DNA of 64,000 nucleotides from Zingiber officinale (Eukaryota > Streptophyta > Magnoliopsida > Zingiberales > Zingiberaceae), in contig NC_056001.1 in assembly GCF_018446385.1 (NCBI RefSeq), forward strand, positions 6,467,600-6,531,599, read 5' to 3'. This document shows positions 18,039-62,217 of this stretch, in pieces. The notes beneath the pieces were generated by a model. It was not told the DNA's origin and did no database searches. It saw nothing but the letters and a program-made list of their open reading frames with translations. Position 1 is the stretch's first letter; each line of letters opens with the position of its first letter. Both the position numbers and the translations under genes were made by a program.

Positions 18039-18065
18039 GTGAATTACAATCCATCTGGGAGAAAA

Positions 18066-32094: not shown

Positions 32095-32103
32095 ATATAT
32101 ATT
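32095..32103 (+). promoter_or_regulatory. TATA-like box of the PIF-like gene
   Basis: TATATATAT lies about 61 bases upstream of the first ATG (32164). A pyrimidine-rich stretch, CAATCCTCTCTACTACC, follows as is usual at plant transcription starts. Confidence 0.5.
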
Positions 32104-32163: not shown

Positions 32164-35100
32164 ATGGATCCCAACGTTACTGACTGCGAGCAGCTGAATC
32201 AGTACTACGCCGATGCCGGTCTCCGCCGCACAGAGCCCGCCTGGTGGGGCTTCTCGCCGCCTTAGAGCCGCTCTTTGATTTCAATTTTTAATTAATTGCG
32301 CGGTTTCGATCGGTTATGGCTATTGATGTCTCGATTCAATTAAGGCACGATGACGACTTGATGAAGCTGATCTGGGATCTCCAAACCGACGGCCCTGATG
32401 CAGCTGTAGATTCTCCGTTGGACGCGACTGATCCCCAGTTCATGGAGGAGGACGAGATGGCTGCGTGGCTGAGCAGCTCGGTAATCGAGGACCAGGGCGA
32501 AGCGACGCTAAAGGATCAGCCGCTGGCGGAGGCCTCGGAGCTGACGCCACTAGCTGCGGTAGCGGAAGGGAAGCGGGCGATGGTGGCGGGATCTAGCCAG
32601 AGGTCGACGCCGTCTTCGTCCGTGTCGGCGGAGCGGAAGCGTAAGGTGAGCAAGGTTAGCCCATCGCCCCTTTTATATTTTGTTCGTGCCATGTTAAATC
32701 GAAATATATTATATGATTTTTTATAAATAAATACTTCTGCCAACATGTTGCTTTATGTCAAGTTAGAAACTCTTTAATGAGTTTGTAGATCAGTATCATT
32801 TTTTTTTGGCTTATTCAAACATTAATAATGATTTATTAGTTTCATAAAACAATTATAAAAATAAATATAATAAATTGTTAATATTTTTTCTGTATTAGTA
32901 TCCAATTATTTTTAAAATATAAAAAATATGTTGAAGGAATTTTTGGGGGAAAATAGCTATGGGATTGTGCATCAAGTTAGCTTAGTTAAAAGACCCATAA
33001 AGGGTTTATAAGAATCAAAGGTTGTAGAAAAGAGACGGTAGGAAATGAAAAGGAGGAAGATTAAACTTTATACATAAGATCATAAGTGACAGTTCCCTTG
33101 ATTTCACAGGTCATCTGAGTTGGTATGTAATGAGATGTTTGTCATATAAGATCGCGGGGTCGAAACTCAGGGTAGTCGGGGCGTAAATCCCCGGTCCCTG
33201 TGCAACTCACCTCACCTGCCACATGCTCGCTCAGGATGCTATGATTTACCTCCCTCGTGATGGCCTTGGGCCACATGCTCGCTCAGGATGCTATGATTTA
33301 TCTCCCTCGTGATGACCTTGGGCCACATGCTCGCTCAGGATGCTATGATTTACCTCCCTCGTGATGGCCTTGGGCCACATGCTCGCTCAGGATGCTATGA
33401 TTTACCTCCCTCGTGATGACCTTGGGCCACATGCTCGCTCAGGATGCTATGATTTACCTCCCTCGTGATGACCTTGGGTGATGACCTTGGGTCGGGTGCG
33501 ACGAGGACGCTGGAGACGAACGATTTCACCTTTTTGCCACATAAGTGACAGTTCCCTCTCTTTATACTGACTCCATAGTCCTGAAATGTCTAAACGAGTA
33601 TTAGCTTGTGGTCCTAAGGAGGGTAAGACATTAAGAAGATATCAGTTTAGACCCACCCTTTGGAAGGTTCAAGATGATATTTATTTTTATTCCTTACAAA
33701 GGTTAGCTTGGCAACAGCCTCTAGCCCTTTCAAGAATTATGTTTCAAATGCCCTTTAATTCCTACCAAGAGTTGAATTTTATAAATTCTCTTTCGATCAT
33801 ATGAGGCTTAAACTAATGACAATCTGTACAATTCCCATCACAAAATGAGTGATGTTGCCCTTCTTTGACTCTTCAATAACAGTAGGTGCAAACGCCTATA
33901 TATTGACATCTTTATTGCAACCACTACTTGCAAATGCTTTCACACAAAGTTAAAGTATGAGATAATATAATAATTCGATTGAAGAAGAAAGTTCATAGTG
34001 AAAGAAAATTATTATTTAAGAGAGTAGTCAAAGGGCCTCATAGATTGTGAAAGCCAAAAATATTGAAGAAATCATGCATCTATCCATCCCAAAGATCCTA
34101 ATTAAAGGAGTTTTAAAAGGAAAAAAGAGGCAAAAGTTGTATCAAGATGGATAGAGGATATCAAGTGGAGAAAGATTTATTTTTATAAGCATAATCACAA
34201 GTGACCTCCCTTTACAACAACTACACAAAAACTTTCCCTCTTATAAGCATTGTGATGGAAGTATACTTTTTAAAATGTTTAAGTTGTTGGAAGAAACAAT
34301 GCTTCAATGTGTAAAAACAAGAGAGATTATTTGATATGTTTGACTGTAGGATTTAAGTTATGTTGATATGTGCATTAAGTGTGTAGGGATTTGACATCAG
34401 CTAGTTAACTCAATGCACTGAAATTAGTTTTTTGTCGAATGGATCTACGGGTTGGTATGAGGTGGACTTATAGTTAGCATGGAGGATAAATGGTATAAAG
34501 TGAGATCAAGAGCTTTGTGCATTGAATAGACCATAAACCTAGCACAATTTGAGCATGAAACATTGATTGATTGCAATTGGGATTGTAGAGATCATTAGAT
34601 CAATAGCTTGATGGCCTAGGACAAGGCGGACTCCTAGGCATAGAGGATTAGATGACATTAAGCATCAGGGTCATTGAAGATCTAGAGATATGAGATGTTA
34701 GAGATCAAGAGAGTGAATTATATTTTTGAGGTTTTGTAAATGATGTATTTAGTTATGTAGTGGTACACTACTTAATGGTTTATTATGAACCCTTTTATCA
34801 AGGGATTACCTATCCCAAGTGGTATTTATCAAACTTGGATTAGCCTCAGGACTTTGTGTAGACTTACAGTGTGTTGAAAGTCAAGTGAAGAAGGGACAAT
34901 CAACTAAATTCAGTTGATTAGATGTGCTTTCAATCGATTAGACTATATTAGTTGACTAGGGAAGTCAGTTGAATGCAAGGGTTTAATGAATAAAATATTT
35001 TTATTTGAGTAACAATTGATGGCTTCTAAACCAGTGAAGGCTTAAGCAGTCACATGGGGTATAGTTGTTGATTTCTAGTGATAATATTAACCTGATCAGT

Positions 35101-38100
35101 CGGCTGAAGGGTATTTCAATCAACTAAAGGCACTTGAAGAGCTAATTTAAAACCTCTTAGGGAGTTTCAAGCCTAAAAGGTTGCACAAATAGATTCATAA
35201 AACTCCTCAAATCAAGTGTTAACGGTGCTCAAAGGTCTTCAAGGGTTTGTATCAAAGTTGAAAGCTTTAATTCAAGCTCTTGATAATTTTCTCATTCCTT
35301 TGTTATAAATTTTATTATATTTGAGAGAAATTGATTATTGTAAAAATATAATAGGATTGGTGTTATAAGTGATTTGCCCAAGTACATCTTGTGAAGAGGT
35401 GATTTATAGTAAAACTTTTGAGGGGTGAGGCAATGACTGTATTTGTAGCTCGTGGATTAGGAGTGAGGTCTTCTAACCATGTTAAATATTGTATTTTAGC
35501 ATTGCACTTGTTTCTATAATATTTCCTTTGTGTCTACACTTTACCAACAATAGAACACAGATGAGAAACTTTGAGATATTAACTCTTTAATTGTTTTTGT
35601 ATTGTGTTGAGAATTACAATTCATAGGTGTTCCCCCATTCACACCCTTCCCTTCTAGTTAGTCGTTTGTGGATCCTTAAATAAGTAAGCAATATCCTATG
35701 GCCTTCAAGATAGTATGACGGGTCAGTATCAGATAGATGATTTGGATGAGGCTTGAGTGTGTTTGTACATGGTTAGAGGGGGAGGACGAATAGCTGAAAC
35801 CTTAAAATAAAATTCTCATGTAAAAACGTAAACTAAATGCAAACTTATTAGTGGAATGAGTATGTTTGTGTATGTTTGGCTGCTAATGATAGGTATAGAT
35901 TCAACAAAAATGATAATAACACAAATACAAATAATTTTAACACGTTTATTTAATGTGGTTTGAGACCTTGCCTCTAATCCAGGACATATGTCGTGTCTAA
36001 TATATTTACGTCGGCAAAGGTTCTACCAAAACCACCATGGTGTCAAAACAAGAATATATATAAATAGATAATTAACTAAACTAACTATATACATATTTTT
36101 GAAAAAACTTCGTTGAACCTATGCATAGATCTAAAAGAAAAATATAACCTAGAGGCTAAAAAATATCCATGATGTGAGCATAAAAATGTAAAATTAGTAT
36201 TTAAGAAGGGTATGTATGAATTTAATCTTAATTAATATATACAAAACAAATTAGCTAAATTGTAATTTCAATTTAAACTTTAATCGTTATTTTTTTTTTT
36301 TTTTTTTGCATCTTTACATGTATATAATCAATTATTTTTCCTTCTAATATTTTTATCAATATTTAGATTTACAACTATTATTATTATCTTTTATCACGAT
36401 TGATGTCTCCTTTTTTTCCATATGCTGGGCTCCTCCTCCTCCACAAGCCTTCTTCATTCGAGAGGATGATGGGATCTGAGAGGATAACACTAGTTAGAGT
36501 CGGGTCGACTCCTCTGGTGTAACTCTTTTGACGCTCAAGTCAGTCATCAATCAAGAAAGTAAGAGCAAAATAATGAAGAGGGAGGGGGAGGATTTTTAGA
36601 GGAAGGAGTTGCCTCCACTTGTTAGAAGAAGAAAACTCTCGTACCTTGGGATTACGATTACTGATGCTTATATAGCCACCAAAAAGGGAATCTCCATGTC
36701 ATCTTTCTTCACGCCCCTTTCATTCTTCCCACCCAAGTCAATGAAGATGTAGTTCTGATGATTCGTTATCGGACGACCTATCCGTGACTGCCACACAAGA
36801 TGAAGAAGTTTCAGAGACACCCCTTCTAACACTCTGCATCTTTTCCTTGTTCGTTGATCGCCATGTATTCTAAGCAAGGGATCGAGGGAATTGCTTCTGG
36901 CATCCTTTCCTTTGATGACCACCATGTGGTGATAATCAAAGGATTAATAAAGAGGCATCGTCTTAATGGTATTGTCCTGGAGGATCATAGGTTATTGCCC
37001 TCTTATTATTCGACCGATCGAATGATATTATTCGACGTGTCTTAAAAGATGCTACTCTGGGGATTCATAAAGGAGATTGCCCGATCAATTCATAAAGAGT
37101 ATTGCCTAGATGGTTCATAAAAAATATTGCCCGGAGGCATATGAGAATCTGCGGAACACTGAGGATATTGCTTGGATGGTTTGTAAAGAATGTTGCCCGA
37201 AGGCTTAAGAAGAATATTGCCCTACTGCCCTTAATAAGAATTCTATCTTGTTGGTCTTAATGAGAATACTACCCCACTGACTTAGTACGAATATTGTCCA
37301 GCTGGCTCATATGAATATTGCTCTAGCTTAACAAGAATAATGCCTGGCTAATCTATATGAAATATTGTCCGACTGACCTATATGAATATTGCTCTGCTGA
37401 CTTAACAAGAATATTGCCTGGCTAGCTTAATACAAATATTGCCCGGCTGGTCTATATGAATATTGCTCTGCTAGCTTAACAGGAATATTGTGTGGCTAGC
37501 TTAATACAAATATTGCCCGACTAACCTATATGAATATTGTCGTACTGACCTTAATAAGGATAGTGCCCGAATAACCTATATGAATATTACCCTGCTGGTT
37601 TAACAAGAATATTGTCTGGTTGGTCTCTAACACTCCTCGAGGGAGGCTGCTTACCATCAGATGCCCTCTCTTCAAGTTAGACTGAAGAATGAAGTCGAAT
37701 GAAGTTTGATTATAAAAAAAAAGAATCTCAACTATCATCAGATGCCCCCCTTCAAGTCAGACTGAAAAGTGAAGTAGAATGAAGTCTGATTATAAAAAGA
37801 AGAAACCTGACTACCATCAGATGTCTTCCCTTCAAGTGAAATTGAAGAGTGAAGTTGAATGAAGTCTAATTATAAAAAGAAGAAACCCAACTACCGTCAA
37901 CAATTTAAGATAATTTTTAGTTATCATTTTTTATTCAATAAAGCTATCGACAATAATATATCTCTAATAAAATTATAATCAATAAATCTTAAAAAGTAAA
38001 GGGCAAAAATAAGAACATCCCAAATTATGCAAATCAACAAAAGAGCGTCCCTTTTTGAGAAAAAACTCAAAAGGGTGCCCCACCAAATATTTTATCCCTA

Positions 38101-41100
38101 TAATACACTTACTTCCAATGTTATTATAGCAGCCATGACTAGCTGCTACAACGTGTAGAAATTACTTGATAACTATTACAATATGTAACACTTAATATAA
38201 TATTATTGTAGCATTGTAGCAACTACTTAGTATATTTTATACTTTGTAGTAGGTACCTACTAGTTGCTACAATTATTTTCAAGTGATTTTAATTAATTCA
38301 AAATAATTTTGATAAAGTTTAGATAATTTCAACTAAGTTGGTAAATAATATTTTGATATAATAGTGTTTAAACTTTATGATTTAGGGTTTAAAATTTTAA
38401 AATTTAAAATTTAGCGTTTATGATTTAAAATTTAGCTACAACTATTTTAAAGTGATTTTAACTAATTTAAAATGATTTTGATGAGTTTAAATAATTTTGA
38501 TGAAATTGGTAAAAAGTATTTTAATATAATAATGATTTATCTGTAGTAATTTTGATTAAAGTGAAAAAATTAGAGTATAATTATTGAAAACAAAGCAAGA
38601 CTTATATATGCATCCATTGACAATTGAAAAAATTTATGTGAAAAATTCTAAAAAGATAAGATACTAGCCTAGTATATATTCAAATAATTAAAAATATGTA
38701 TAATGATGTAATGATAAGAATGAAAATTTCAAATAGATTAATTAAAATATTTTTTTTATAAAGATAGAATTGTATCAAAAATGAGTTGTAAGTCCATATT
38801 TTTTTAATACTAGTCATAGATGAATTAACTCAACTTATCTAAGATACATTACTGACCCGGCGGTAACGACGGGGGACCCCCTTTGAGGGAAGTCAACGTC
38901 ACGTGGAGGTCAAAGGTCAAACGGTCGACCGGGAAAGGGGGGCCTACCGGCCGAACGGGGACTAAGCGGAAGCAAAGACAACCCGACGGGGAGTCGGGTC
39001 TCCGACGCTCATGGTGAACAGGGTCGCCGGGCCGAGCGGGTAGCCCGCTCGGCCGAGGCATAAAGCAACAATGCTGTGAACAGTTTCATCCGAGCACACG
39101 ACTGGGAATTGTCCGAGCGGATCAGACGCTCGGCGCGGGAACAGAAGAAACAAAAGGACAAGGGAAACATCGGGGGACATTTTCTGACAACAAGCGTGTT
39201 CGACGGCTAACCCATACGCAAAAGCCTATGATGGAAGGGTCTACTGTCCCATCAAAGAAGTGCTCGGAGTATAGCAGTATGGTGTCAGGCAAGCTCCTCT
39301 GGCAAGCCCATACTGAGGTATGGTAAGAGGACACGTATTCGCGTCGGTATGTGTGCATAAGATTCTTCACAGCTCTATATAAGGGTCCTCACACTTCGCC
39401 GGAGGTACGCATTCTCGCATCTTTGAAGCCACTTCTGCATTTCCTCTTGCCTGACTTGAGCGTCGGAGGGTCGTCGCCGGGAACCCCTTCCCGGCTCGAC
39501 TTCTTTGCAGGTTCGCCGGAGATCCCTACGACCGGCCGGAGATCCACATCATCAGTTCGTAGAGCGCCACATGTCCAGCGTCGGTTGATTTAGCGTTCGG
39601 GCAGGATCAAATTGGCTTCGTCTGTGGGAACGCACCTGTATCCGAGCGGAAGAGATGGATGAAGCTGGACGACCGCACACTGTGATGCTCTCCCAGGAGG
39701 AGCTCGATGCTCTAATCGAGGCAAGAGCAGCTAAACTCGTGGAACAACAGAAGCAGAAAGCACAAGCCGAGTGGATGGAGCAGCAAGCGACGTCCGCGTC
39801 GGGAGGCCGAGCGGAAGCACTGCCCGCCACGGTTCCATTTCATCGGGCCATATTCCGTACGCCTCCTGAAGTCACAACAATTAACCGCGAACGAGGGTCT
39901 TCATCCGACGAGGCACCCATGTGAGACAACAGAAAAGGCAAGGCTCCCCGAATGGACGCCTCCCCCGAGCGGATCAACCGGCAGTTTTCAGAAGTCATCC
40001 TGCGGGACCCTCTGCCAAAGCACTATGTGCCCCCGGCGATCGGTGAATACAACGGAACCACCGACCCGGACGACCATCTGGGTAAGTTCGACAACACAGC
40101 TACCCTACATCAATACACGGATGGAGTAAAGTGCCGGGTGTTCCTTACCACCCTCTCGGGATCGGCGCAACGGTGGTTTCGGAGGCTGCCGGACGAATCC
40201 ATCACAAGTTTCAAGGACTTCCACACGGCCTTCCTCCACCATTTTGCAAGCAGTAGGCGCTATCAGAAGACTAGTGTCAGCCTATTCGCCATCAAGCAAG
40301 AGCCCAGGGAGCCGCTCAGAGCGTACATCCAACGATTCAACCGAGTGGCCATGGATATTCCAACGGCCACCTCGGAAACGATGATGAATGCGTTCACACA
40401 AGGCCTCGTGGACGGTGACTTCTTCCGTTCACTCATTCGGAAGCCGCCTCGAGACTACGATCATATGCTACACCGGGCCAATGAATACATCAATGTGGAG
40501 GAAGCCCAGGCAGCCCGAAGGAAAGAAGCTCCAACCGAGCGGCTAGTCCCTGTCGAGCAGAAGCCTGGCACTCGCCAGGAACCACTCAGAGGACCGCGTG
40601 CCGAGGCAATCCGCTCTCACCACGCGAGGTCCCATGTTGTCCAAGAGGTAGCTGCCGAGCGGCCCAAACCAAAGAAGAAGGTATGGACCCCTATGTTTTG
40701 CTCGTTCCACCGAACCGATACGCATAACACGCGAGATTGCCGAAGCCTTCCCCTGATCGCCCATCCCGCTCCTCGGAGTAGCCGTCGTCGATCGCCATCA
40801 TCCGACAGGCGACAGCGACACTATGAAGCCGATCGGCGGATATCCGACAGGCGACAGCAACTGTCTCCCGAGCGGCATCATCCTCAGAGGCACGAGGACA
40901 ATCCCCGGGTGTCCAAGGAACGACCTAGGTCGTCCGCCCGGGAGGAAGAAAATAGAAGCAACACGTCCCGCGGCGAAATCAACATCATCGCTGGCGGGCC
41001 GATCGGAGGTGACTCCAACAGAGCAAGGAAGGCAATCGTCAGGCAGCTCCAGATCCATGCAGTCGGCTGCAGTCAAGAACGGGCGAGCGGGCCCGAAATC

Positions 41101-50100: not shown

Positions 50101-53100
50101 TCTCCTTGCATCTTAGCTATGAAAATTAAATGGGAAAAATATTTTTATTTAATTCCTGAAATTTATTTAATTGCATTTGCTTTAGATCCTAGATTTAAAT
50201 TAGAAGTTTTACAAGAAATGTTAACTTTATATTATGATGCTTTAATTCCAATTAAAGATTCTTCTTCCCCTGATCCAGCTAATATTATATATAATGTTAG
50301 AATTTATTTATATGATATTTATAATCAATATTATGCAAAATATGGAACACAAATTAATATTTCTGAAATTCAACAAACTACTAGTAGTAATTTAAAACTT
50401 ACAAAAGTACAACTCTTATTAAAAGAACGGACAAAACGTCCACGGGGATCCTGAAGTTCCACACAGGAACTTGAGAATTATTTTACGACTTCTTTTGATT
50501 TTAATGAAGCAGATAGCGAAAACTTCGATATCTTAAAGTGGTGGTCACAGAAGGCTCAAAGCTTTCCCGTTCTCTCCGTGATCGCAAAAGAAATTTTAGC
50601 TTGTCCAGTGTCAACTGTTGCTGTGGAGCAGACGTTCAGTGCCGACGGCAATATATTAGATGAACGACGATCAACTTTGTCTCCCGACTCATTGGAAGCC
50701 CAAGCATTACTAGACGATTGGACCAGAGCGGAGAAAAGAATCCAAGGAATGCAACTTTCAGATGACGAAGTTGAAGATTTTGATATTGAAGGAACAAATA
50801 CGACAGGAACAGGAAATGGAAGTGAATGAAAATGTAAAAGGATAAAAATGTAAAAGAACTACGTGGGCTTTGATTCCCCTAAAGGGATACGTAGGCAACT
50901 TAAATAAGTGCAAGCCCTTTTTTTAATAAATTTTAATTTCTAATTTTTAATGTTTAATGTTTAATTTTTAATTTTTAATTTTTAATTTTTAATTTTTAAT
51001 TTTTAATTTTTATTAACATATTAATCTTGAACCGTGATGAACCGTGACGAACCGTGAACCGAACCGTGAACCGACGGTTCTGAACCGTGAACCGTAACCG
51101 TCTTGGGCGGTTAAGGTTAAGGGTCGACCTGCCTGGAACCGTCGAACCGGCGGTTCCGAACCGTCGAACCGTCTAGCCTTGGGTTTAGTGTTACCTAGTT
51201 CAACATTAATAGGGAAAAAGAAAATCAAAAAAGACTTTATTAATAATAATGCAATTAAATAAAATTTATTTAAATATAAATAATAATAATATAGTGAGGA
51301 ATCAAGCACGATAGTATAGGAAGATTCTTATAGTCGATCCCATATAATGAGATAAAGATTTAGTTGTTATATTACAGTAGTATTGTTAAAGTATAACAAG
51401 GTCATCTAACATATAGTTAACCGTCCTCACTAGTGAATAAATAAATATTCATTGCGGATAACCCCTCATGTTCATATTTTAATATTTTTGTTTCTCTATT
51501 TAAAATCATTATTGTTTTATTGTAGATCTTTACACTATATTAATTACACTCTCACTTTACATGAGATAAATTAGTTTAAACACTAACCTAGATTAATATT
51601 TTCATTATCAATTATGCTAATTTATTATATGTTAGCATGTGGTTATTGGGTATGAGGTATATATAACCTACAACACAAGTATCACATCTAAATCAACAAG
51701 TTGTAAAGGGGTCCAAACAATTTTAAAGACAAGTATTATAAAAGAGTAAGACAGAGCATCTATTTTAAATTTAAAAAACCCTTTCGGATATGAAACTCAC
51801 ACATAAATATGAAAAAAAAAGTTAATTATTTATCCCTTGATAGTTTAATTATTTTAAAACTCATTTCATTATTTTTAATTTTATTTTTCAAAAATAGTCA
51901 TAAAGATTATATAAATTTGGGCACTAATTAAAAGGACACCCTTATTATCATTCTGTTAAAAGGATTTTTTTTCAAAAAAAACAAAACAATGCCCTTGATA
52001 TATTTTTCATTATGAAAATATCCTTATGCAAGCACTATTTTAGCAATTATATCATAGCTCCTATAACATGTTAAAATAAATCAATTAAATGTTTTTTAAA
52101 TTTATTTTAGTCAAAATTACTATACATAAAGTACTTTCATATCATAATACTCTTTACCGGCTTAGTTAAAATTATTTAAACTTAATTAAAATTGCTATAG
52201 CAGCTATATTGTAGCTACTAAAATAAGGATGTAGCAGGTATTATGAAACATAGATAACACTGTAGCAAAAAACTAAGTATGATCCAAATAAATATTACTA
52301 GGGCATGCTATCAACTCAATAAAATTTGATGAAAACCTATAAACAACACAGAAAACATTAAACCAATTATAATTGTATCTTATTAAACATAATTGTAGTC
52401 TATTTAAAAGGAGAAAAAAACATATTTTTAGCCATGGTTAAATATGTTTTGAGGTGTGAATCAATCACACAAATTTGAATCTCACCAATATAACACCCAT
52501 CCTCTTCATTTTTCAAATGTAACTTTCCCTTACTTTGTTTTTTTGTTAATATAATTTGACTTGACTATATGCCAACTCTTTCACACAACCACTCCACTTT
52601 TAATGATTTTCTCTTACGCATTTGTAGAAAGACTTTTATATTTTCCACTTAGGAGACACAAGACAATTAAACCATAAACTTCTCCATTAGAATTAAAGAG
52701 AATTTTCCCTTTAAGGATGAATTTCAACACTCTAGCTAGAGAAGATCGATTGGCATGACCCATAAAAATTTACTCATGGAAAATTATTATTTAACTCTTC
52801 ATTGAGTATTTTCTTTTTGCAATCCTATCACAAAATGAGTGTTGTTGTCCTTGTTGACTATAAAATCCTTTATTAATCCACAACAATAGATGTAAACACT
52901 TATTGAGATCTTTAATATTGCCTCCACTACAATTGATTTGAGAGGAATCTCAAAGGTTATGTAAGTAAAGAAAAAAGAAAAAAAACATGAGCAATTACGG
53001 ATCAAATCAACCCTAGAGATCCCAATTAAAAAAGTCATTAGGGAATAAGAAGAGACAAAGGTGTGCAAGAAGGCTATAGCAAATCAAAAGGAGAAATATG

Positions 53101-56100
53101 AACTTTATAAAAAAAATAAAAATGGCAAATAAAAGAGCCCCTCTTTTTATACCAATAACACACTTTTTCTTTGTTAAAAACATTGTAATGGAAAAATGTC
53201 CAAGCAAGCATTAGTTTACTACCCTCAGGAACATAAGACGTCCGAATACATATTTTCTTTGATCCTTAGGAGGAGGGTGAGTTAAGTACGATATTTAGCT
53301 TTGACCCTTACGAAGGTTAGCTTGACAATATCGTCTAGGATTAGGTTCACTCTAATATCTAAAGGACTATATTTGATAAAATAGTTTTAGATCTTACAAG
53401 GGTTAAGTCTCACAATAACCTTTACGTCATGTAAAGGTTAAGCTTTATGACAAATTATGACCTTAATAATGATTAAGATTGATGATGGATCTTGCCCATA
53501 TGAGAGTTGAACATAACAAGGATTTTCATTAATGTTTGACCCAAATTGTGCACACCACTAATTTATACTATGTAGTAAGTATCTTATGATACCATGAAGA
53601 CTCAAATTGTGCACACCATTAATGCTCGAACACGCTGAGTTTCAAACTCAAGTCCTTATATGACAACACCTTATACCTCAATCACCACACCGTCCTAAGG
53701 GAACGTCAGGTGTGACTCCCTAGATGAAAGATCTTGTGGTTCGAAGGCTAGAAATTATTGAAGGCATACACATTTGGAGGATCTACTATGTGAATTAAGG
53801 TTGGATAGCCATTAAGGCTGTTCCCTATTAGACTTTTGTATGGGATACATACATAGTTATAGACCATTACCCACAAATCCATTAATAGCCACCTCTTAAT
53901 AAAAAGCAATGGGCAATCCTTACACACTCAACTAAAATTTGTTTACAATAAACTCTCCTCTTTCAAAGATAATGAATTATTTAAGCTGAATAACAAGGAG
54001 ATTATCAAGAGTTTGAGTTTAAAATTTTGCCCTTAACTTAAGACCTTGGAGACCTTTGAATTAGAGTATTTTTCATATAACCACTTGTGCCCAAAGCTCT
54101 CCAAGAGTTTATATAATGAACACTTATTTGGCTCGAGTTTGGTTACCTTGAATTATTATAAAAAAGGAGAAATATTATAGTTAAAAGCCAACGACTATGT
54201 CACCGATTGATTAAATTTCATCTCCAAGAAACCACTCAAGCCTCCAATCAATTGTTGCTCGAATAAAATCAACACTCGCATTTAGTTAACTATGGAGTCT
54301 ACTAATATGCTCTAGTCGATTAGTTAGTTGATTGGAGTTTAGGTGATTCCATCTTCACTTATAGATGCACGAGAATGAGCTAGTTGGCAAACTACTACTA
54401 CGTGGGGTAAACAGTCCTTTGGTTTAAGGTTTCACAACCAAACCACCAGGTAGTCTAACTCTACCTAGCTATCACACATCATTTACCATGATGTTGTCAA
54501 AATAAAAAAGCTTCAAGATTCAAGGTTCAAAATCTTAATTCGTGCTAAAGTGTTAGATTTTTTTTTGAATGATAACATTTTGGTACCATATACCATATCC
54601 ATATTTTCAACATATGGTGTTGGTAGAAAATTAGAGGGGAAAGAAGTAGATGGAAAAAAAAAAAAAAAAAAAAAAGAAGAGAACACCATTATTTACCTAA
54701 TTTTAGATTTGGTCTCCCATTTGGAATACTACAACTTTGACATTTGATTGAATTGACACAAACTACACACAAAAAAAAAAACATTATTTCAATTCATCTT
54801 GATGTTTTTATTGAGCTAAGTATGATTTTAATATCCAAAATAAATTATTTTCTATTGGAATAATAAAAAAATTTCGTGGTATATGATTTTTAGAGATTTT
54901 CTTAATTTGACCCTTGTGAAATCTAAAATATGAATTAAGCCTTTCGTAATTTTTAAATTTTAAATTTTGAAGAATATTTAAATTTTCACATGCATAGTTA
55001 TTCTTCAATTTTTTTATTTGTACTTTCAATTTTTCATTTTTAATTTTCAAATTATCAACATTACTAAAGGACATGAATTTGCTAAGTTTAATTTTAGCTT
55101 ATCATTTTCATCTTCTAATTTTAGCATATTTTTGGAAAGCATTTTAATAAATTTAAAATATTCTTCAAAAAGTAAGGCTCGTACCTCACTTACCTTATGG
55201 TCTGATGATTCATCTTCATTGTTACTTTTTTCTGAAGATCCTCCTTCTTCGATGCTTATTTCTAAGGAACTTTCGTCGTTCCTTTGGTGGTTTGCCCTCA
55301 TGGCTAATCAGGCATTCTCTTCTAACTCTGATTCTGATGACGACGATTCATCCCATGTCGCCTTCAAGTTCCTGTGCTTTGATCTTGTTGGTATTTTGTC
55401 CTTGTCTGTCTCTTTCTTTTTTAATTTAGGGTAGTCATCCTTGATGTACCCTTCTTCTTGACAGTTATAACATTGAACTTACATTTTGCTTCCAAGGTGC
55501 TTCTTCGCCTGCGACTTATTAAATTTATCAGCTTTAAGAAATTTATTAAAATTTCTTACCATTAAGGCTACCTCGTCTTTGTTGATTGATGCTTTAGAGT
55601 CTGGATCGTCCGTTCTTGCCTTCAGGACAATTGTCTAACTTGGCTCCTTTAATTCTACACATCTAGATTTGAAAACAAACTTTCTAATGAACTTACCTCT
55701 AGATCCTTAGAAATGTAATAGGAGCCAACTATGGGCGTCCATTCTTGTGTTCTAGGGAAAGCATTTAAAGCATACCTTAATGAATCTCGGTTTGTAACCT
55801 TTTCTCTAAGATTCATGAGTTCGGTGATCAACTTCTTCGGTTTGACGTGCAGTTGTGCTACTAACTCTCCTTCTTTTAGCCGGAGGTTTATCAGTTGGTT
55901 CTGGAGCAGGTCCCGTCTCGCGAGCTTTGCTTCAGATGTTCCTTTGTGTAGCTTTAGGAACTTCTCCCAAAGTTCCTTTGCTGATTCGTAGGTGCTAATC
56001 CTACTGACTTGTTGAGGTGGCAGCACACTTAGCAGGTGGAATTTAGCTCGTCCATTTGTCACAAAGTCTGTTTGCTCCTTTTTATCCAAAGGTACTCTTC

Positions 56101-59100
56101 TTTTTCTTCACCTTTTTGATCTTTTAGAGCTACAAACTCGTATTTAATTATTTTTAAAATCTCAAAGTCAGTTTTAAAAAATACCTCCATTGACTTTTTC
56201 CATGGGACAAATTTCCCCTCGAACTTCTGCAGGTAGATACTTGGTTTGGTCATTATCTTATTTGTTCGGTAGGCGGTTAGTCTTTTTGAAGCGTTCTTGC
56301 TCTGATGTCACTTGTTGGTCTCAATGCGGCATGCAAAAGGGGAGGTGAATTGCCTGTCGAAAACGGCAACCCCTTTCTCATTCTTTGGACATTAATTAGT
56401 AAGCACAATTAATTTAAATAAAAAATAAATTGAACAACTAAAATAAAGAAGAGACGAGGAATTACTTGGTTATAACTTAGGTAGTTGTTAATATAAGGCT
56501 TTGAAAATGCTCTACTAGAAAAACTCCTTAGTTGAAGGTAGAGTAGTCTCTTACAGATGTTGACAACCTACAAGAAAGATTAGGAAGTGATTACAAGACT
56601 TGCAGTTCAATTTTTTTTTGTTAAATTCCTAGCTCCAGGGGTACTTTTTATAGCCCCTGGAAAAACCTATCAATTGCTCGAAGGCACCTCCAAGGAGATC
56701 CAATGCGCCTCCAACAAGATAAGTTTTATCCGTTGAAGATAAAACTTTATCTTCAGCTAACGACAATTGAAGGGGCCTCCAACAGGCTTAAGGGTGCCTC
56801 CATGAGCTCGAGGGCACCTTCTATATCATTGAAGACGCCTTCTATGATCAGGTATTAAGGGTGTCTTCCTTCTTCTTGAAGGCGCCTCCAGCAGCTACTG
56901 TCAGACTTTAAAGTCAATTTCAAAGTTGACAATTCTTCGTGCGGGAGATACTCTAGCCGTCCGGAGTTGAGCTCACCCGATGCCAACTCCGACCTTCTCC
57001 TCGAGCAGACTTTCTCCCGATTTCTCGTCCCTCAAACGTTGTGCGCGTTCTTCTCGTCCACCGGCGTACTCTTCCGCAACACCTCGTCCCTCAGATGCAC
57101 CACCGAGTATGTTGACTCGCTTCCCGTGTCATCCTTCTCGCTAGCTACATTTTCTGCTCAATTTCTTGTGCTCCTAAGATCTTGTACACTTAGAGAAACA
57201 AGACATCAAACACAAACAAGACCTAACTTAACTCGATTGATCAAATCAAAACTACCACAGAATACTTCAATAATAACAATCACTTAATGCTCCATGCCCT
57301 AGAGTCCTTTAAGCTCCTTCAAAGCTCCATCACTTTATAGTCATTGAACTAAAATTTAACTCTGACCTCAATGAGTCAACAAGATTTATGAGTTTCATGT
57401 GCATTATTCTAAGTCCATATTTAACGCATATCTGAGAAATTTAGGCAAAATTTAAGTTAAACTATACTATAAATACATTAAAATAATATAGTTGAACCTA
57501 ACGACACAAAAGGATTGTTTCCCCAACAAGATCATTAGTATTGCTAGTATTGCAACTACTTTTAGAATTTCAAACTAGAGATAGTGACTTAATTAGAGAT
57601 ATAAGTATATAGTAAAATGAAATTGTTATTTATGGGACTTGCCATTTAGCCTTGTAATTTGCATAATCAAAAAATGCCTAAGGGTCAAGCATCAAATCAA
57701 CCCTAAAGATCTAAATAAAAAGTCATAAATGGATAAGAAGATGCAAAAGGTGTATTAAAAAAGGTTATATGGGCATCACAAGGAGGAGGAATCAACTTTA
57801 TGAACAATATTACAATTGACAACTTATAGATGCAACCCTAATTAATTCCTTGTATCAAAACTAACCCAAATCATTTTCTCCCACTATCAAAACCACTATC
57901 ACAAGATACTCTCCACAAAAGGAGAATCGTCTTGTAAAGAGTTCACTATATATGTCTTGATTGAGCTGGAATGTCTTGCATTATCACTTGTCAATTCCTA
58001 TAAAATATTGCCTACCCCATCACTCATAAGCTAGGGCAACAATTGAGCTAATGAGTACTTTAAACTTGCTACTTTTGATATACACCAAAGCCAACAGAGA
58101 ATTCCTCTAAACCATCTCAAAATGCCAAAATTATATAAAGACATCTAAATGCACTACAACTCCACGAGTAAAAAAAACCTAAGTATGAAATTTTAATCTC
58201 ATCCTCTAATTGACCAAATAAAGTAAAACATCTAAAAAAAATGGCAACATTAAATTTACGGCCTAAGTCATTCTGTATGGCCACAAGTATGGCATAAAAA
58301 CCAATGTAGTAATTTCCTCAACACCTTTTAAATCAAAATTAATTATACTAAAACATTGTTAAGAAATTTAAAAAAACATAGTGATGTTTAAAACCTTAGA
58401 TTAAAGGGTTCATTTCATCATTTGATTTATACAAGTATAATATTTTTTTTATGTTGATTGATCACATTCCAATTTGAATTTGTATGTTATGGAATAGATA
58501 AAAATCTTATTATGTTCTTATATCCATAAGAATCCTAAAATTATCTGCATAGTCCAATGTCAAATTGAATATTTTGAAATTTTCCATAATAAAAAATTTA
58601 CTAGACCATAGAGAAAAATTCTGAGGAAATTAAACTTTTAGAATTAGCCACATATAAAATCTTAGTAGTCTACTAGTGCCAAGAAAAAAAATGAAGATGA
58701 ATACGTAGAACATACACATACCTAAAAAGTGTCAAACCCTCCTTCTAGAATGATCAAATATCAACCTATTGAAGCTTAAACACCTTCCTCTGATGGTCCT
58801 CAAGCGACAAGGGAGGCTCAATAGGGAAAACTTAGTAGGTCATGCATAATACTGTAAAAGGCAAACAAACAAAAGGTACTATGTTATTAACCATAAGGAA
58901 ATAACATAAAAATGTGTCGGTCATCTAAAATGGTGTTATGAAGTAATTTGAAGATCTTCACAATATCTGCTTCGTCTGTTAATCTCCTCCATCTTTCATC
59001 TTCTTTTTCAAAAAAACTTTACATCCTTGCAACATCTCATAATGTGAGTTTTCTAGTCCACTATAGTTAAATTCATGGTATCTTTGAATATTTCCTTAAA

Positions 59101-61997
59101 TGAGTTTATTTCTTCTTGTAAATTGCTATTTCTGGATTCATAGTGATGCATAGTTTCAATCAAACAATCAATTAATATTGTTTTCTAAAACAAAAATTGA
59201 TAAAACAAACCAATATTATCTTACTGAAAGATAATAAAAAAATAATAATGTAAAAATTAATGATTAATTGTAACCCACATTGAAAAAAAAAAATCATCAG
59301 AAAAATATAAGTTGAATGATGAGAGCAAAATACAAAAATGACACAGATATATCTTTTGCATACATCAATTCATAAGAATAACACTAGTAAGAAACTTGGA
59401 AAGACGCAAATCAGATAGGTAGCACATTTAGTCACACTTTCAAATTAAATATGATCCCAGAACTTAACTAGAGGAATTAAACTTGAAGAATGATTTGTGT
59501 TTCTGAAGAAAATGAGTCCCTTAACCATGTAGTTGAGTTGATCTCCATCATCTCTAAATAAACAAATCAAAGAGTTTACCTTGAGCAAATAAGCATATGT
59601 CCTTCATTTCAGAACAAAAGATTGATTCTAACTAAATAGATCTGATTACCTTGAACGAACAAACGTATGGCATTTTCATTTCATATGTTGGGTTTCATAT
59701 AGTTCAAGTACAATTTGACCATCAACACATGAGGGAGGATGCCAAGATCATAAAATTAGATATGATCTTTAGTTCAATAAACAGAATAATTTTTTTAAGA
59801 AGAGATATGAAGGGATCTCGTTTACTAAAGCAGTGAAAAAATTTGTAGTCTTTCATGTTATCTCTTTGCATTTGCCTGTGGTCTATTGAGCTGGCATTCA
59901 TATGTGACCATTTTCTCTATGAAAAAGGATCCTGAAGCTAAACATAGTGGCAGAAGGAAACAAACATCTGAAAATGGACGAGTGAGAAAGCTACGAGCCT
60001 TGGAGATCCACAATCAGTCTGAGAGGGTGCGCTCTTGAACTAATTTCATATTCTTTGCCTACGTATACCTGCAATTCATTTCAGCATGAAGGGTTCCTTC
60101 TAGCTTGCAGTATTCTGATGGTATCAGTTGCTTATCTACGCAGAATCGTCGGGATAGGATCAACTCCAAGATTAAGGTCTTGCAGGAAATCATACCGAGT
60201 TGCAAAAAGGTAATCTCCCTATAAATTCTACCTTGATCTACCCATTCCTTAATAATTAAAGCTCTTTGAATACTTTTAGTGCTTAATATGTTAATTATAG
60301 AGTCAGACCTCCACTAGTTATCCTATTTATCATTTTCCCAGTTTCTTTCCTCATTATTGGGCGAGTTTACAGGCTCTATACCCAAGTTTGATCTGGCTGG
60401 ACTATGATGGTTGATGTTTAACTATAATTCTAGCTTGTTAACATGAATGTATTAACGGGTTGTGTTTTCTTAAATTTTCTGGAAGTACTGGTAATCAAAT
60501 TCGAACTTTAACATTTTAAATGCATATTCTGGAGAATCACCCACTCAATTTTGGTTTTCCTATGATTTCAGCCTGACAAAGCATCAACGCTGGATGAGGC
60601 CATTGAATATATGAAATCCCTTCAACTCCAACTCCAGGTATAACTTGAACTTTACAGTTCAAATATCTTTTGTTCGGTTATGACTTATGAGGGCTTGAAA
60701 TAGGATAAACTGTTAACCTTCTCGCTGATCATGATTTATGACACATAATGTTATAGCTTCCTTCCCTTTGCTTGACCAACATATCATAGCCTGCTTCCTA
60801 TTCTGTTCTCATTCTGCTGATTTTATTGAAAGTTAACAATGAGAACATAAGCAAGAGCTACAGCAATAATTTCAGCTGAAGGTAAGAAAACTTACGCCAG
60901 CACCTTAGAGCCTCATTCAAGAATCAAGATTTAATTTGAAAGCTCGTTTGCTTGCTGCTTGGAGATAAGTTTCTTATCAGCCATTTCAAATTAAACTAGT
61001 TCACTTTTATGCAGCATATCTAGCTTGGGGCAAGTTACATGTAAGTCAATTGATTGGCTGGCCGATTGATACAGAACTTGTCATGATGCAACTTTACTTA
61101 ATTAGGCATACAAGGTTTCCTTAACACAGCAAGCTTTGCATGTCTCCGGGCATTGAAATAAAGTTACAAGCAAGAGATTGTGAAACTACTTGCATTTAGA
61201 TAAAATGTTCTTACCTTTTTTCTCTGGCTCGATCGCAGACTTACTAATATTTGTGGTTTTCAACTACTACAGATGATGTCTGGGGGATGCAACGTTGGCC
61301 CTCTGCTGTTTCCAGGTATCAGGCCATTCATGCCTCCCATGGGACTGGGAATGCATATGGGACTGGGCATGATGGATCTGGGAATGAATATGGGCGTAGA
61401 GATGGCTCATGGCTGCCCAATGCCTCCTTTTGGACCTCCTCCATTCCCATACTCAGCTATTGCAGGCCATCCGCCGGCACAATTAGGCCCTGCACCTCCC
61501 TCCTTACTGTTTCAGGCGGCTGCGCCAACAATCAATCAGGTCAGGGATGAACCAATCAATCTGCTGAATCTTTTGCATTATCCCGGAAGAAGTTCAGATG
61601 CTGCTCAGATCCCACCTATTTCCGAAGCTTATCCCTGGTTTATCGGCCCTAGAAGCACTCTTGCGCCACCTCAGGTAAATAGTTAAGGGCCATCGCTGTC
61701 AAATCATTTTTTATTATTTTCTTTCTTAGTGATGCAAGATTTACTCGATCTACATGTAGTTTGTCATAGATTTGAATACAATAAACACTATCTTATTCTT
61801 ACTTGCTTGGAAGTTTCAGAATCCAGTACTGTATGAACCCGAAACCGACGCAGGAGATTCTAGTGCCAGCCACAGCAGCAGGTAAGGTCGCTGCTATCTT
61901 ATGAATGATGAATGCAAGAAATATTGTTATTCGTCATTTGTGCTTAATCTGTTACGATCGCATGGAATTCAGTGTGTTTCCTATGGCTCCAGGTTGA
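32164..61997 (+). CDS. PIF-like bHLH transcription factor with one giant intron
   Basis: PIFs are nuclear bHLH regulators that act downstream of phytochrome. Exons: 32164-32243, 32345-32645, 59928-60026, 60144-60209, 60572-60637, 61273-61674, 61820-61881 and 61973-61997, giving 366 residues. A simpler start at ATG 32316, unspliced, gives 349. The N-terminus has an APB-like HDDDLMKLIWDLQTDG and the PIF motif FMEEDEMAAWL. After RKRK comes a basic region, ALEIHNQSERNRRDRI, then helix-loop-helix KIKVLQEIIPSCKK and DKASTLDEAIEYMKSLQLQ. A Met/Gly/Pro-rich tail (GMHMGLGMMDLGMNMG, then MPPFGPPPFPYS) is typical of PIFs. The exon at 32645 ends in phase 0 and the exon at 59928 starts in phase 0, and their products join as in family members. 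The 27.3-kb intron between them is full of transposons. The last exon could instead be read through to TAA at 61883. Joining of the two halves is inferred, not proven. Confidence 0.75.
33099..33539 (+). mobile_element. SINE with internal minisatellite expansion
   Basis: It is flanked by perfect 18-base duplications, CATAAGTGACAGTTCCCT, at 33081-33098 and 33540-33557. The head has an A-box-like GAGTTGGTATG and a B-box-like GGGGTCGAAACTC, as in tRNA-derived SINEs. The tail ends TTTCACCTTTTTGC. Between them the body contains five copies of a 52-bp unit, which makes this copy about twice the length of an ordinary SINE of this kind. Confidence 0.85.
33221..33480 (+). repeat. 52-bp tandem repeat inside the SINE, five copies
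   Basis: ACATGCTCGCTCAGGATGCT begins at 33221, 33273, 33325, 33377 and 33429, an exact 52-bp step. Copies are nearly identical and differ at GATGGCC versus GATGACC and at ATTTACC versus ATTTATC. High identity suggests recent amplification. Confidence 0.9.
33560..34300 (+). repeat. Unnamed AT-rich repeat family A, copy 1
   Basis: It shares ordered blocks with 52,800-53,300 and 57,630-58,000. These include CATCACAAAATGAGTG, then a GTTG.CCTT block, a later CCTAATTAAA-type block, AAGAGGCAAAAG, and GCATTGTGATGGAA near the end. Another shared block, AAATGTCTAAACGAGTATTAG, starts near 33583. The open frame at 33586-33804 is AT-driven and not recognised. The class is unknown; it could be a decayed LTR element. 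Confidence 0.45.
34335..36200. mobile_element. Copia LTR remnants, one in each orientation
   Basis: Positions 34,335 to about 35,660 carry GATTAG, AATCGATTAG and CAGTTGATTAG words and end in CCCCCATTCACACCCTTCCC, like the 3' part of a plus-strand SIRE-type LTR. From 35,770 the sequence GGTTAGAGGGGGAGGACGAA looks like the end of an LTR in the opposite orientation. No target duplications or coding parts were found, so the limits are rough. Confidence 0.4.
36201..37089. other. Intron DNA, nothing recognised
   Basis: AT-rich sequence gives way to moderate GC at 36,400-37,040. Two small overlapping frames there (36668-36925 minus, 36854-37045 plus) show no known domain. Confidence 0.3.
37090..37620. 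repeat. Satellite-like array with 74-bp higher-order unit of about 25-bp subunits
   Basis: Short units of the form GAATATTGCCCGGCTGGCTT follow each other with variation. In the best part, three subunits (beginning TATGAATATTGCTCTG, AAGAATATTGCCTGGC and CAAATATTGCCCGG) form a larger repeat. Starts at 37381, 37455 and 37529 give an exact 74-bp step. The left portion is more diverged. Confidence 0.75.
37653..37900. repeat. Tandem repeat, about 80-bp period, three copies
   Basis: CATCAGATGCC-type starts at 37655, 37736 and 37815, with a partial start at 37895, give steps of 79-81 bases. Each unit contains CTTCAAGT, GACTGAA, GTGAAGT and a TTATAAAAAGAAG stretch. It directly follows the 74-bp array. 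Confidence 0.75.
38040..38560 (+). repeat. Unnamed AT-rich repeat family B, copy 1
   Basis: Blocks such as TTTAGATAATTTCAACTAAG, then TTGGTAAATAATATTTTGAT, match the reverse strand of 51,900-52,270 in order, with related GCGTCC/GGACACCC and TATAGCAGC blocks nearby. An internal duplication is visible near 38,460-38,540. There is no coding capacity. The class is unknown. Confidence 0.45.
38853..39609 (+). repeat. 5' LTR of the Gypsy element
   Basis: It begins TGACCCGGCGGTAACGACGG and ends GCAGGATCA. A TATA-like CTCTATATAAGGG lies near 39373 and probably sets the transcript start. Small open frames inside it are not genes. Confidence 0.95.
39610..39631 (+). other. Primer-binding site of the Gypsy element
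   Basis: Directly after the LTR comes AATTGGCTTCGTCTGTGGGA. It resembles the TGGCGCCGTCTGTGGGA type of site found in many plant Gypsy elements, with two or three changes. Confidence 0.6.
39655..42316 (+). pseudogene. Gypsy gag-protease-RT fragment joined to integrase C-terminus
   Basis: Gag starts at 39655 (MDEAGRPHTVMLSQEELDAL). An in-frame TGA at 39922 breaks it before MDASPERINRQFSEVILRD. The core gag domain (AQRWFRRLPDESI, then AYIQRFNRVAMDI) precedes a protease with VFIDTGSSVNIIF. Near 41295 the frame shifts by one and a further TAG follows, after which protease reading resumes with YNVILGRPALSEFRA. The RT start (RDFSAEQNAIIRAEVENLLE, then VVLVSKPGNK) stops abruptly at about 42004. It fuses to the integrase tail (VGDLVWKKVKP, then WAGPFKVIKKLRSGAYYLED, then WSVNHLQPYRAG). 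The RT catalytic Asp pair and the integrase core are absent. Confidence 0.9.
42424..43077 (+). repeat. 65-bp tandem array, about ten copies
   Basis: Units contain GGAAGACCGTCGAGCTCCGA, GTTAAAAATCGAGAGTCG and GGCGACTATAAACCC. Starts at 42508, 42573, 42638 and 42703, then 42874, 42939, 43004 and 43069, show an exact 65-bp step. Copies between 42710 and 42870 have small deletions. The array sits between integrase and the 3' LTR. Confidence 0.95.
43660..43672 (+). other. Polypurine tract of the Gypsy element
   Basis: GCAGGGGAGGCAAG lies immediately before the TG of the 3' LTR, where plus-strand DNA synthesis is primed. Confidence 0.75.
43673..44430 (+). repeat. 3' LTR of the Gypsy element
   Basis: It begins TGATCCGGCGGTAACGACGG, ends GACAGGATCA and matches the 5' LTR over its whole length. 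The target duplication ATTAC follows directly. Confidence 0.95.
44440..44965. mobile_element. hAT-like non-autonomous repeat with GGGCCAACCC words
   Basis: Both ends are rich in GGGCCAACCC, GGGTTG and CAACCC words in opposite orientations around an AT-rich middle. This pattern is common in non-autonomous hAT elements. Its left part may have been cut by the Gypsy insertion. No end duplication was found. Confidence 0.4.
44968..46592 (-). mobile_element. Probable solo LTR (Copia, SIRE-like)
   Basis: The left end TGTTAGGACCTGTGC, then AGAGGGGGTGAATAGC, and the right end GATTGCATCAACA have LTR form for a minus-strand copy. The interior has GATCGATAT- and ATCGATTGAT-like words and about 55-bp degenerate units with GTCAACCTTGACC and GGACTT. 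No coding region, primer site or polypurine tract adjoins it. The 5 bases on the two sides (GCACG, ACATG) do not match well, so the limits are provisional. The right edge abuts LINE sequence. Confidence 0.5.
46593..48115 (+). pseudogene. LINE reverse transcriptase remnant, split by a hAT fragment
   Basis: The first part (46593-46805) reads NNMLFIDDIILV, with an IDD version of the catalytic DD motif. It continues, with a frame change, as KFKFSSIRRNKINIKLGDDK and LPISESFRYR, typical of plant L1-type LINE RT. The second part (47773-48115) resumes with FLQK, then FYQMIVRPVILYEAKY, EQKMKVTKMRMLRRMCKY and KTRL, matching the end of the same RT family. Several stops and frame shifts are present. A hAT-derived insert of about 970 bp separates the parts and is flanked by repeats of TTTAGGTATA. 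The start of the LINE is missing. Confidence 0.75.
46806..47772 (-). mobile_element. hAT transposase C-terminal remnant inserted in the LINE
   Basis: On the minus strand the stretch reads KSIVYLLFYKLLTLTLILL, then VATATIKSIF, then NRMSDD and MNDSFIVYVEKDIF, the C-terminal dimerisation region of hAT transposases. Stops are frequent and the N-terminal two thirds are absent. The 10 bases TTTAGGTATA occur on both sides (46796-46805 and 47773-47782). hAT elements make 8-bp duplications, so part of the match may be chance. Terminal inverted repeats were not resolved. Confidence 0.65.
48290..51190 (+). mobile_element. Ac-like hAT DNA transposon
   Basis: A nearly intact transposase frame sits between GC-rich subterminal regions. 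On the left are many CCCGG, CCGGGTC and GGCCCGG words. On the right are many GAACCGT and GAACCGGCGG words. A TATA-like CTATAAATAGAGAG lies near 48593 and a T/A-rich TTTTTAATTTTTAA tract follows the gene near 50,960. Exact ends and the 8-bp duplication were not found; candidate ends near CCTCGGGTAGAC and the inverse of CCAAGGCTAGAC are similar only loosely. Confidence 0.75.
48706..50829 (+). pseudogene. hAT transposase with BED zinc finger and one in-frame stop
   Basis: The frame runs 707 codons. A BED-type finger (CKHCNASYKF, then RHVEMKH) lies at about residues 85-110. Conserved hAT segments follow: SLDNASSNTACIDDL, RCACHVLNLCVQDGL and VPTRWNSAYQLL. A TGA at 50452-50454 interrupts it, and the same frame continues at once with the hAT dimerisation region (ILKWWSQKAQSFPVLSVIAK, then EILACPVSTVAVEQTFS, then LDDW). 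Only this one stop is seen, so decay is slight or it could be read through. Upstream start codons in other frames are not used. Confidence 0.9.
51900..52270 (-). repeat. Unnamed AT-rich repeat family B, copy 2 (inverted)
   Basis: The reverse strand carries TTTAAATAATTTTAACTAAG and GGTAAAGAGTATTATGATAT in the same order as copy 1 near 38,290-38,350. Similar GGACACCC and TAGCAGC-type blocks flank it. It lies about 13.5 kb from copy 1, in opposite orientation, within the same intron. Confidence 0.45.
52800..53300 (+). repeat. Unnamed AT-rich repeat family A, copy 2
   Basis: It shares TATCACAAAATGAGTG, a later AGAGATCCCAATTAAA-type block, ATTGTAATGGAAAAATG and AAGCAAGCATTAGTTT with copy 1, in the same order. 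Small minus-strand frames here are AT-driven. Confidence 0.45.
53301..54800. other. Intron DNA, nothing recognised
   Basis: AT-rich sequence without recognised protein. A poly-A run lies at 54655-54675. Part of it may be the decayed pol side of the Copia element to the right. Confidence 0.3.
54808..56253 (-). pseudogene. Copia gag polyprotein, decayed
   Basis: It starts MTKPSIYLQKFEGK, continues with the UBN2-type gag core (ESAKELWEKFLKLHKGTSEA, then LREKVTNRDSLRYALNAF), and then a zinc knuckle reading CYNCQEEGYIKDDY. In that knuckle the expected His and last Cys are replaced. An acidic, coiled segment (KLEDENDKLKLNLAN) and NYACENLNILQNLKFKN with RNFFIIPIENNLFW follow, as in SIRE-type gags. 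Stops and frame shifts separate the pieces. The protein normally packages the element RNA. Confidence 0.8.
56313..57528 (-). repeat. LTR of the SIRE-like Copia element
   Basis: It is about 1216 bp with TG and CA ends. The open frame at 56967-57287 on the plus strand lies inside it and is not a gene. A second LTR for comparison is not present in the window. Confidence 0.6.
57630..58000 (+). repeat. Unnamed AT-rich repeat family A, copy 3
   Basis: GCATCAAATCAACCCTAAAG, then AAAAAGTCAT, GGATAAGAAGA and GCAAAAGGTGT correspond to blocks in copy 2 (near 53000-53060) and, more weakly, copy 1. Confidence 0.4.
58001..59927. other. Right end of the giant intron, nothing recognised
   Basis: AT-rich sequence without transposon ends or protein frames of note. 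Part of it may be original intron. Confidence 0.35.
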
Positions 61998-62217
61998 AAC
62001 GTTGAACCAGCAACAGCGGCCAAATGGAAGTCAGAATGGGCGCATCAATTTGGCGACAAATCAAATGGAGTGCCTTGAAGTTTTTGTAGAATTTGTATAT
62101 ATGCAATGTAGTAGTTTAGTAATCTGTCTCCGAGTAAGGATCGCGGAAGGGGAACCCTTCAAAGTCAGGGAAAATAGTATTTATCTTGTACTTAGTTGAG
62201 TATGTGGACCATGTTGT

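Follow-up and report, generated by a model that had tools for sequence, protein, structure and literature searches.

The window, the 64,000-nucleotide stretch of DNA that was analysed (C16:6467600-6531599), contains a bHLH gene on its + strand which reads as eight open exons between 32164 and 62005 and codes for a 362-aa protein. A TATA-like box (TATATA, 32094..32099, +), identified as a motif only, lies 70 nt 5' of the ATG. Exon 1 (32164..32243) extends from this ATG to the donor CTG/GTGGGG and ends within a codon, which is interrupted by the first intron (32244-32344). Exon 2 (32345..32645) contains a degenerate APB region (HDDDLMKLIWDLQTDG), an activation-domain-like MAAWL with acidic flanks, and RKRK at its end. 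It is followed by the long second intron (32646..59927, +), which spans 27,282 bp from the donor AAG/GTGAGC after 32645 to the acceptor AAAAAG/GAT before 59928, obeys the GT-AG rule and is in phase 0 on both sides; an alternative donor (AAG/GTTAGC), also in phase 0, is located 9 nt downstream of the first. Exon 3 (59928..60026) enters through this phase-0 acceptor and encodes DPEAKHSG...HNQSER, exons 4 (60144..60209) and 5 (60572..60637) encode the bHLH and exon 6 (61273..61674) the C-terminal region, while exon 7 (61820..61881) follows from the gene-model reading and exon 8 (61993..62005) ends with a TGA stop, all on the + strand. The remaining introns are all GT-AG, none of the exons contains a stop codon, and the window is free of N. 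The initial annotation had placed an N-terminal and a bHLH half on the same strand, 27.3 kb apart, with donor and acceptor in phase 0, which is confirmed, as are its undamaged exon frames, since all eight exons are open both here and on the second haplotype described below. The start it gave for the gene (32164) also holds, but its end (61997) is replaced by the TGA at 62005 or, should the last splice go unused, by a TAA at 61881-61883.

The HLH domain of the protein is recognised by Pfam (PF00010, E 8e-16), and its HNQSERNRR carries H, E and R at the positions that usually contact DNA. The N half matches no PDB entry and no Pfam family, exon 6 has no relative in the prokaryote collection, as expected of a plant gene, and a literature search for peptide strings returned no match. 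Scans of the window with Rfam (at the gathering threshold) and for tRNAs yielded nothing. Upstream of the bHLH gene, the window holds a piece of a proline-rich receptor-like kinase (18030-19196, +) and a gene whose VARLMGL protein contains a weak piece of DUF4378 (22260-25589, -).

The long intron is filled with transposable elements (TEs). One of them is a Gypsy LTR element (38853..44430, +) with the target site duplication (TSD) ATTAC and LTRs of 757 and 758 bp, which are identical at 728 of 757 aligned bases (K2P 0.0395) and differ by 7 CG, 6 CHG and 7 CHH transitions, counts too small for an analysis of sequence context. Its gag is matched by Pfam (E 4.6e-19) in an open frame, and no reverse transcriptase or integrase was found by Pfam in the four frames scanned. 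One open frame of the element (41333-43074) terminates in a weak SH3-like match that falls short of the Pfam cut-off and is followed by a tandem array of about ten 65-bp copies. A gag frame which, judged by eye, closely resembles the one in the intronic Gypsy occurs near a UNE10-like paralog (L030, C16:21233812-21235000). A hAT transposon of 2,851 bp (48325..51175, +) is flanked by an 8-bp TSD (48317-48324 and 51176-51183, 7 of 8 bases agreeing) and encodes its transposase in two frames with a stop between them, of which Pfam recognises the RNase-H (E 2.4e-10) and dimerisation (E 3.5e-23) domains. A Copia gag remnant (55311..56307, -) comprises a Pfam match within 55655-56107 (E 9.8e-10) and a CCHC-like piece seen by eye (55311-55478). 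Gypsy, Copia and hAT copies, all named in the initial annotation, are borne out by their Pfam proteins, while the LINE named with them comes down to a single degenerate motif, a possible reverse-transcriptase remnant (46560..46720, +) with one RT-like LFIDDIILV (~46,600) noticed by eye in an interrupted reading frame. Near the 5' end of the intron lies a 0.44-kb block (33097..33539) with a minisatellite of five 52-bp units (33218-33478), and towards the 3' end one copy (57040-57271) of an inverted repeat whose partner is located far upstream at 12035-12262, the two being 75.5% alike. Poly(A)-type hexamers show no consistent bias between the two intron strands (AATAAA 43 vs 33, AATGAA 27 vs 22, ATTAAA 35 vs 45, TATAAA 43 vs 27).

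The genome searched (3.09 Gb, 211 contigs) is read as a phased diploid of 11 pairs because many HLH matches are paired on C1/C2 to C21/C22. A whole-protein search finds the same gene on C15 (8455140-8476188), where both halves are present in the same order and on the same strand, all eight exons are open and every GT-AG splice dinucleotide is kept; exon 1 is identical and exon 2 differs by a 6-nt in-frame indel. The long-intron donor reads GTGCGC on C15 compared with GTGAGC on C16, and the intron itself (8455628-8474107) measures 18,480 bp, so that the 27-kb intron of the initial annotation is a property of the C16 haplotype. In a collinear alignment, which covers 17,378 intron bases, the Gypsy, the hAT, the minisatellite block and a stretch of some 0.66 kb (57835-58496) are missing from C15, which shares the Copia remnant and has an insert of its own of about 0.73 kb at window position 38571. 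The Gypsy and the hAT, which have target duplications on C16 and empty sites on C15, explain most of the difference in intron length; because these sites are empty, what the two haplotypes share of the intron must have been long beforehand, and the additional 8.8 kb is haplotype-specific.

Divergence between the haplotypes (K2P) rises from 0.0130 in exons through 0.0200 in the short introns, 0.0276 upstream and 0.0358 downstream to 0.0466 in the long intron. The lower K2P between the two Gypsy LTRs (0.0395) would be in line with insertion of this element after the haplotypes parted. By the rates we assume it would date to 1.5 to 2 million years, a figure that is too old if methylation speeds LTR mutation. 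The coding sequences differ by 14 substitutions and the 6-nt indel; nine of the substitutions change an amino acid and five are silent, giving a dN/dS of 0.54, which is not clearly purifying, and constraint on the bHLH gene appears modest. None of the nine amino-acid changes falls in exons 4 and 5, and four of them, as well as the indel, fall in the 127 codons of the N half.

PIF-class paralogs in the same genome were found with two degenerate DNA patterns (10 and 12 matches; none for either pattern reversed). At all 11 distinct loci measured (L033-L036, L038-L042, L048, L049) an intron of 92-114 bp separates the bHLH exon from the preceding one. This count leaves out L037, a chance match to the pattern, and L045 (C4:102350772), which has an EYLKSLQMQ stretch, lacks further bHLH exons within its 3 kb and is probably a gene fragment, together with repeats (L043, L044, L046, L047, L050, L052, L053), the two alleles of the gene itself (L051, L054) and the UNE10-like locus L029/L030, for which the donor could not be fixed. 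Two further loci (C18:4.47 Mb and C17:96.1 Mb), at first taken as PIF-like, resemble a different bHLH group and were set aside; the structure reading did not extend to their counterparts (C17:3.76 Mb and C18:85.98 Mb). The paralog introns enter in phase 0 before DAE, EAE, DIE or ETE (GAC GCC GAG, GAA GCC GAG, GAT ATA GAG), and the long intron enters in phase 0 before DPE (GAT CCT GAA). In position, the long-intron acceptor is therefore homologous to that of the paralogs. The donor of the long intron precedes that of the PIF4-like paralogs by about 11 codons, and one pattern for a micro-exon encoding their extra residues, tried on the + strand of the intron, gave no match. A canonical PIF4-like gene occurs in two copies about 17 kb apart (L041, C16:6294278 and L042, C16:6310974), some 0.2 Mb before the bHLH gene, and the pattern found one copy on C15 (L040, C15:8238511); an ungapped comparison of the two 3,021-base loci gives 59 differing positions, and the pair reflects either a duplication confined to this haplotype or a doubling in the assembly.

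The bHLH shares 42 of 58 residues with a PIF4-like and 36 of 58 with a UNE10-like paralog. The N half shows weak likeness to three paralog N halves, with 44, 27 and 150 of 500 shuffles reaching the respective scores. Among the best 113 of 202 candidates of the whole-protein search, residues 1-81 match only this locus and its allele (E<=0.01), and every further match starts no earlier than residue 82 and concerns the bHLH. The paralogs that were read carry an APB-like motif (ELVELLWRNGH, ELVELLWQDGH or AELLWRDGH), a W-centred motif, KRK and the bHLH exon. The APB core is ELxxxxGQ, which belongs to the segment that dominates the binding of phyB (PMC6888877). Three of the four core residues are kept in these paralogs (ELLWRNGH, ELLWQDGH, ELLWRDGH), compared with the L alone in KLIWDLQT of the bHLH gene. 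The activation domain of PIF3 has been shown to be PhixxPhiPhi with acidic neighbours (F93/W96/L97; PMC8460787), and such a motif with acidic flanks is present as MAAWL at residues 61-76 (EEDEMAAWLSSSVIED) by pattern only. Like the PIFs (subfamily VIIa/b), the gene has an HLH split by introns, a phase-0 acceptor at the paralog position and a PhixxPhiPhi-type motif, but unlike them it keeps one of four APB residues and has a short N half with weak similarity to the paralogs. The bHLH gene is best explained as a diverged PIF-class bHLH transcription factor. Published practice would leave it out of the PIFs because its APB core is not kept, just as apple MdPIF6 was excluded for want of an APB (PMC7582839). 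We think that the protein is a PIF-class activator that phyB cannot hold, the loss of phyB binding being predicted because ELxxxxGQ reads KLIWDLQT. The earlier description as a light-signalling gene needs qualifying and is weakened by a phyB-binding core that keeps one residue in four, while an activation-domain-like motif is still present.

The long intron differs in composition from its surroundings. In the 17,322 bp that remain when the Gypsy, hAT and Copia pieces are subtracted, CAG and CTG together occur 186 times compared with a mean of 344 in dinucleotide shuffles (z -11.1). Both are low (CAG at 0.49 and CTG at 0.58 of expectation), so that the depletion affects both strands and is not an avoidance of splice sites. 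GAC and GTC show no such loss in the long intron (1.11) and are low in the short introns (14 vs 22), where CAG and CTG show no depletion (41 vs 38 expected). Depletion of CAG and CTG is mild at 1-17 kb (309 vs 359, z -3.0), the counts at 25.6-32.1 kb are 169 vs 179, and the ratio is 0.64 outside the gene at 62.1-64 kb, measured against another expectation. In 1-kb windows the mean ratio is 0.52 for 15 windows in the intron and 0.88 for 26 outside it (p 0.00024, the windows not being independent). CpG observed/expected is 1.20 in the 5' flank, which is CpG-rich together with the N exons; it is 0.43 in the C-half exons, which like the short introns are CpG-poor with normal CAG/CTG. Such a pattern would be expected if this is a single gene whose 5' end is open and whose body is CG-methylated.

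A similar picture emerges from C/T differences between the haplotypes, which in the long intron affect 106/527 CG, 106/516 CHG and 349/4784 CHH sites. The corresponding counts are 4/59, 3/92 and 12/382 in the short introns, 30/399, 22/453 and 63/1944 upstream, 11/121, 6/84 and 35/507 downstream, and 5/123, 3/161 and 2/311 in the exons, where CHG also exceeds CHH on small counts. CHG differences in the long intron are raised relative to both the short introns (p 1.1e-5) and the upstream region (p 1e-13). Raised CG and CHG turnover between the haplotypes delimits an intron core (36901..57834), with the exception of 52301-53273, where it is not raised, and 53331-54800, where CHG is weak (1/14). 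Divergence is low at the intron rims (0.014-0.025), with CHG differences of 4/21 at 58.7-59.4 kb and 5/42 at 35.4-36.9 kb. The reading that the long intron carries a mutational footprint of past CG and CHG methylation is indirectly supported by these data, and its core is probably heterochromatic. The intronic heterochromatin proposed in the initial annotation finds a counterpart in a footprint of the long intron that the short introns and the 5' flank do not share.

The two halves could in practice be separate, with the C half, expressed alone from a start such as the in-frame ATG 59919 adjoining the acceptor, yielding a protein that consists of the bHLH part only, while the N half would be a decaying remnant or a short protein ending in the intron. 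The weak similarity of the N half to the paralogs and its share of the amino-acid changes and the indel would suit this scenario, but the N half contains no stop codons, the splice dinucleotides on both sides are intact in both haplotypes, acceptor and phase are those of the paralogs, and 59500-59930 has no TATA[AT]A and a CpG-poor composition of gene-body type; we regard a split gene as unlikely. That the intron is an assembly artefact or joins unrelated loci might be suspected where an intron presumably spans repeats in a TE-rich assembly, and is hardly credible given that both halves and 17,378 aligned intron bases are collinear on C15, the TE ends carry TSDs and the window is without N. 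Both halves, their order and strand and the open exons recur on C15, and acceptor position and phase match the paralogs, which is more than chance would give, and the bHLH gene is very probably spliced as one gene.

The footprint could also reflect the general history of TE DNA, or methylation restricted to the TEs, and say nothing about heterochromatin that matters to the gene, as CAG/CTG are mildly depleted at 1-17 kb (z -3.0) and at 62.1-64 kb (0.64) too. The haplotype differences, however, arose when the shared sequence was already inside the gene, and they favour CHG (106/516) over CHH (349/4784) in the long intron but not comparably in the short introns (3/92 vs 12/382). Together with the lack of GAC and GTC depletion in the long intron, and with divergence that is low at both rims but elevated across most of the core, this makes such an explanation rather improbable. 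The preferred reading, to which we assign a probability of about 0.75, is that of one PIF-class gene across a TE-filled intron with a heterochromatic core, the rest of the gene not being heterochromatic.

For one such gene, RNA polymerase would start near 32.1 kb, transcribe the entire long intron and splice 32645 to 59928. The second intron, which is ~100 bp in the measured paralogs, has been filled by TEs to 18.5 kb on C15 and 27.3 kb on C16, and its putative heterochromatic core, methylated at CG and CHG, may silence cryptic poly(A) and promoter signals of the TEs. The bHLH probably binds G/E-boxes, the N-terminal acidic MAAWL probably activates, and the protein should not bind phyB, the APB core being lost. 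A transcript that ends prematurely in the long intron would encode a 153-aa activation-domain fragment without the bHLH (stop after 32723). A doubtful extension, which we regard as a long shot, is that the methylated core sets for each allele the ratio of full-length activator to activation-domain-only fragment, in which case a phytochrome-blind PIF would be dosed by intronic heterochromatin and not by light in a plant heterozygous for the 18.5 and 27.3 kb introns.

The value of the bHLH gene lies in its allele pair and in the loss of the APB. Two alleles whose introns are set apart chiefly by a Gypsy and a hAT offer a natural test, within one plant, of how intronic transposon insertions affect transcription, and their coding differences allow RNA reads to be assigned to a haplotype. 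Another implication is that heterochromatic introns may be recognised, where no methylome exists, by the CHG mutation footprint of two phased haplotypes.

EDM2 or IBM2 is required by RPP7 and IBM1, and transcripts of RPP7 can stop within a 5' LTR that lies in an intron (PMC7529245, PMC11265718, PMC5364540); 55 possible further EDM2 targets are cited in PMC7529245. The bHLH gene resembles IBM1, RPP7 and other EDM2/IBM2-dependent genes in its long TE-bearing intron within the coding sequence and its CHG-type footprint. Unlike in those genes, dependence on IBM2/EDM2 and proximal polyadenylation would be conjectural here, RPP7 being the model case for a transcript end within an LTR of this kind. 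According to a survey of Arabidopsis, 109 of 705 genes with introns >1 kb have introns with non-CG methylation, and in most of these less methylation leaves full-length transcripts unchanged, with IBM1 and PPD7 as notable exceptions (PMC11265718). As most cases keep their full-length transcripts when methylation drops, a methylated intron alone would be a poor predictor of regulation, and an effect of the putative heterochromatic core on expression is a candidate only, of a kind that would be uncommon by this one survey. Among the titles and abstract openings listed by searches of one literature library, none names a PIF gene with such a transposon-filled intron. The MSH1 introns of orchids and gymnosperms are reported to be TE-expanded to as much as 101,025 bp, with 85 orchid MSH1 introns >10 kb (PMC10487979). 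As in MSH1, the exons of the bHLH gene are kept and its intron has grown by TEs, but here growth concerns a single intron of one bHLH gene, for which a second haplotype of intermediate length exists. TE-filled introns this large are already known, and the bHLH gene is a new case.
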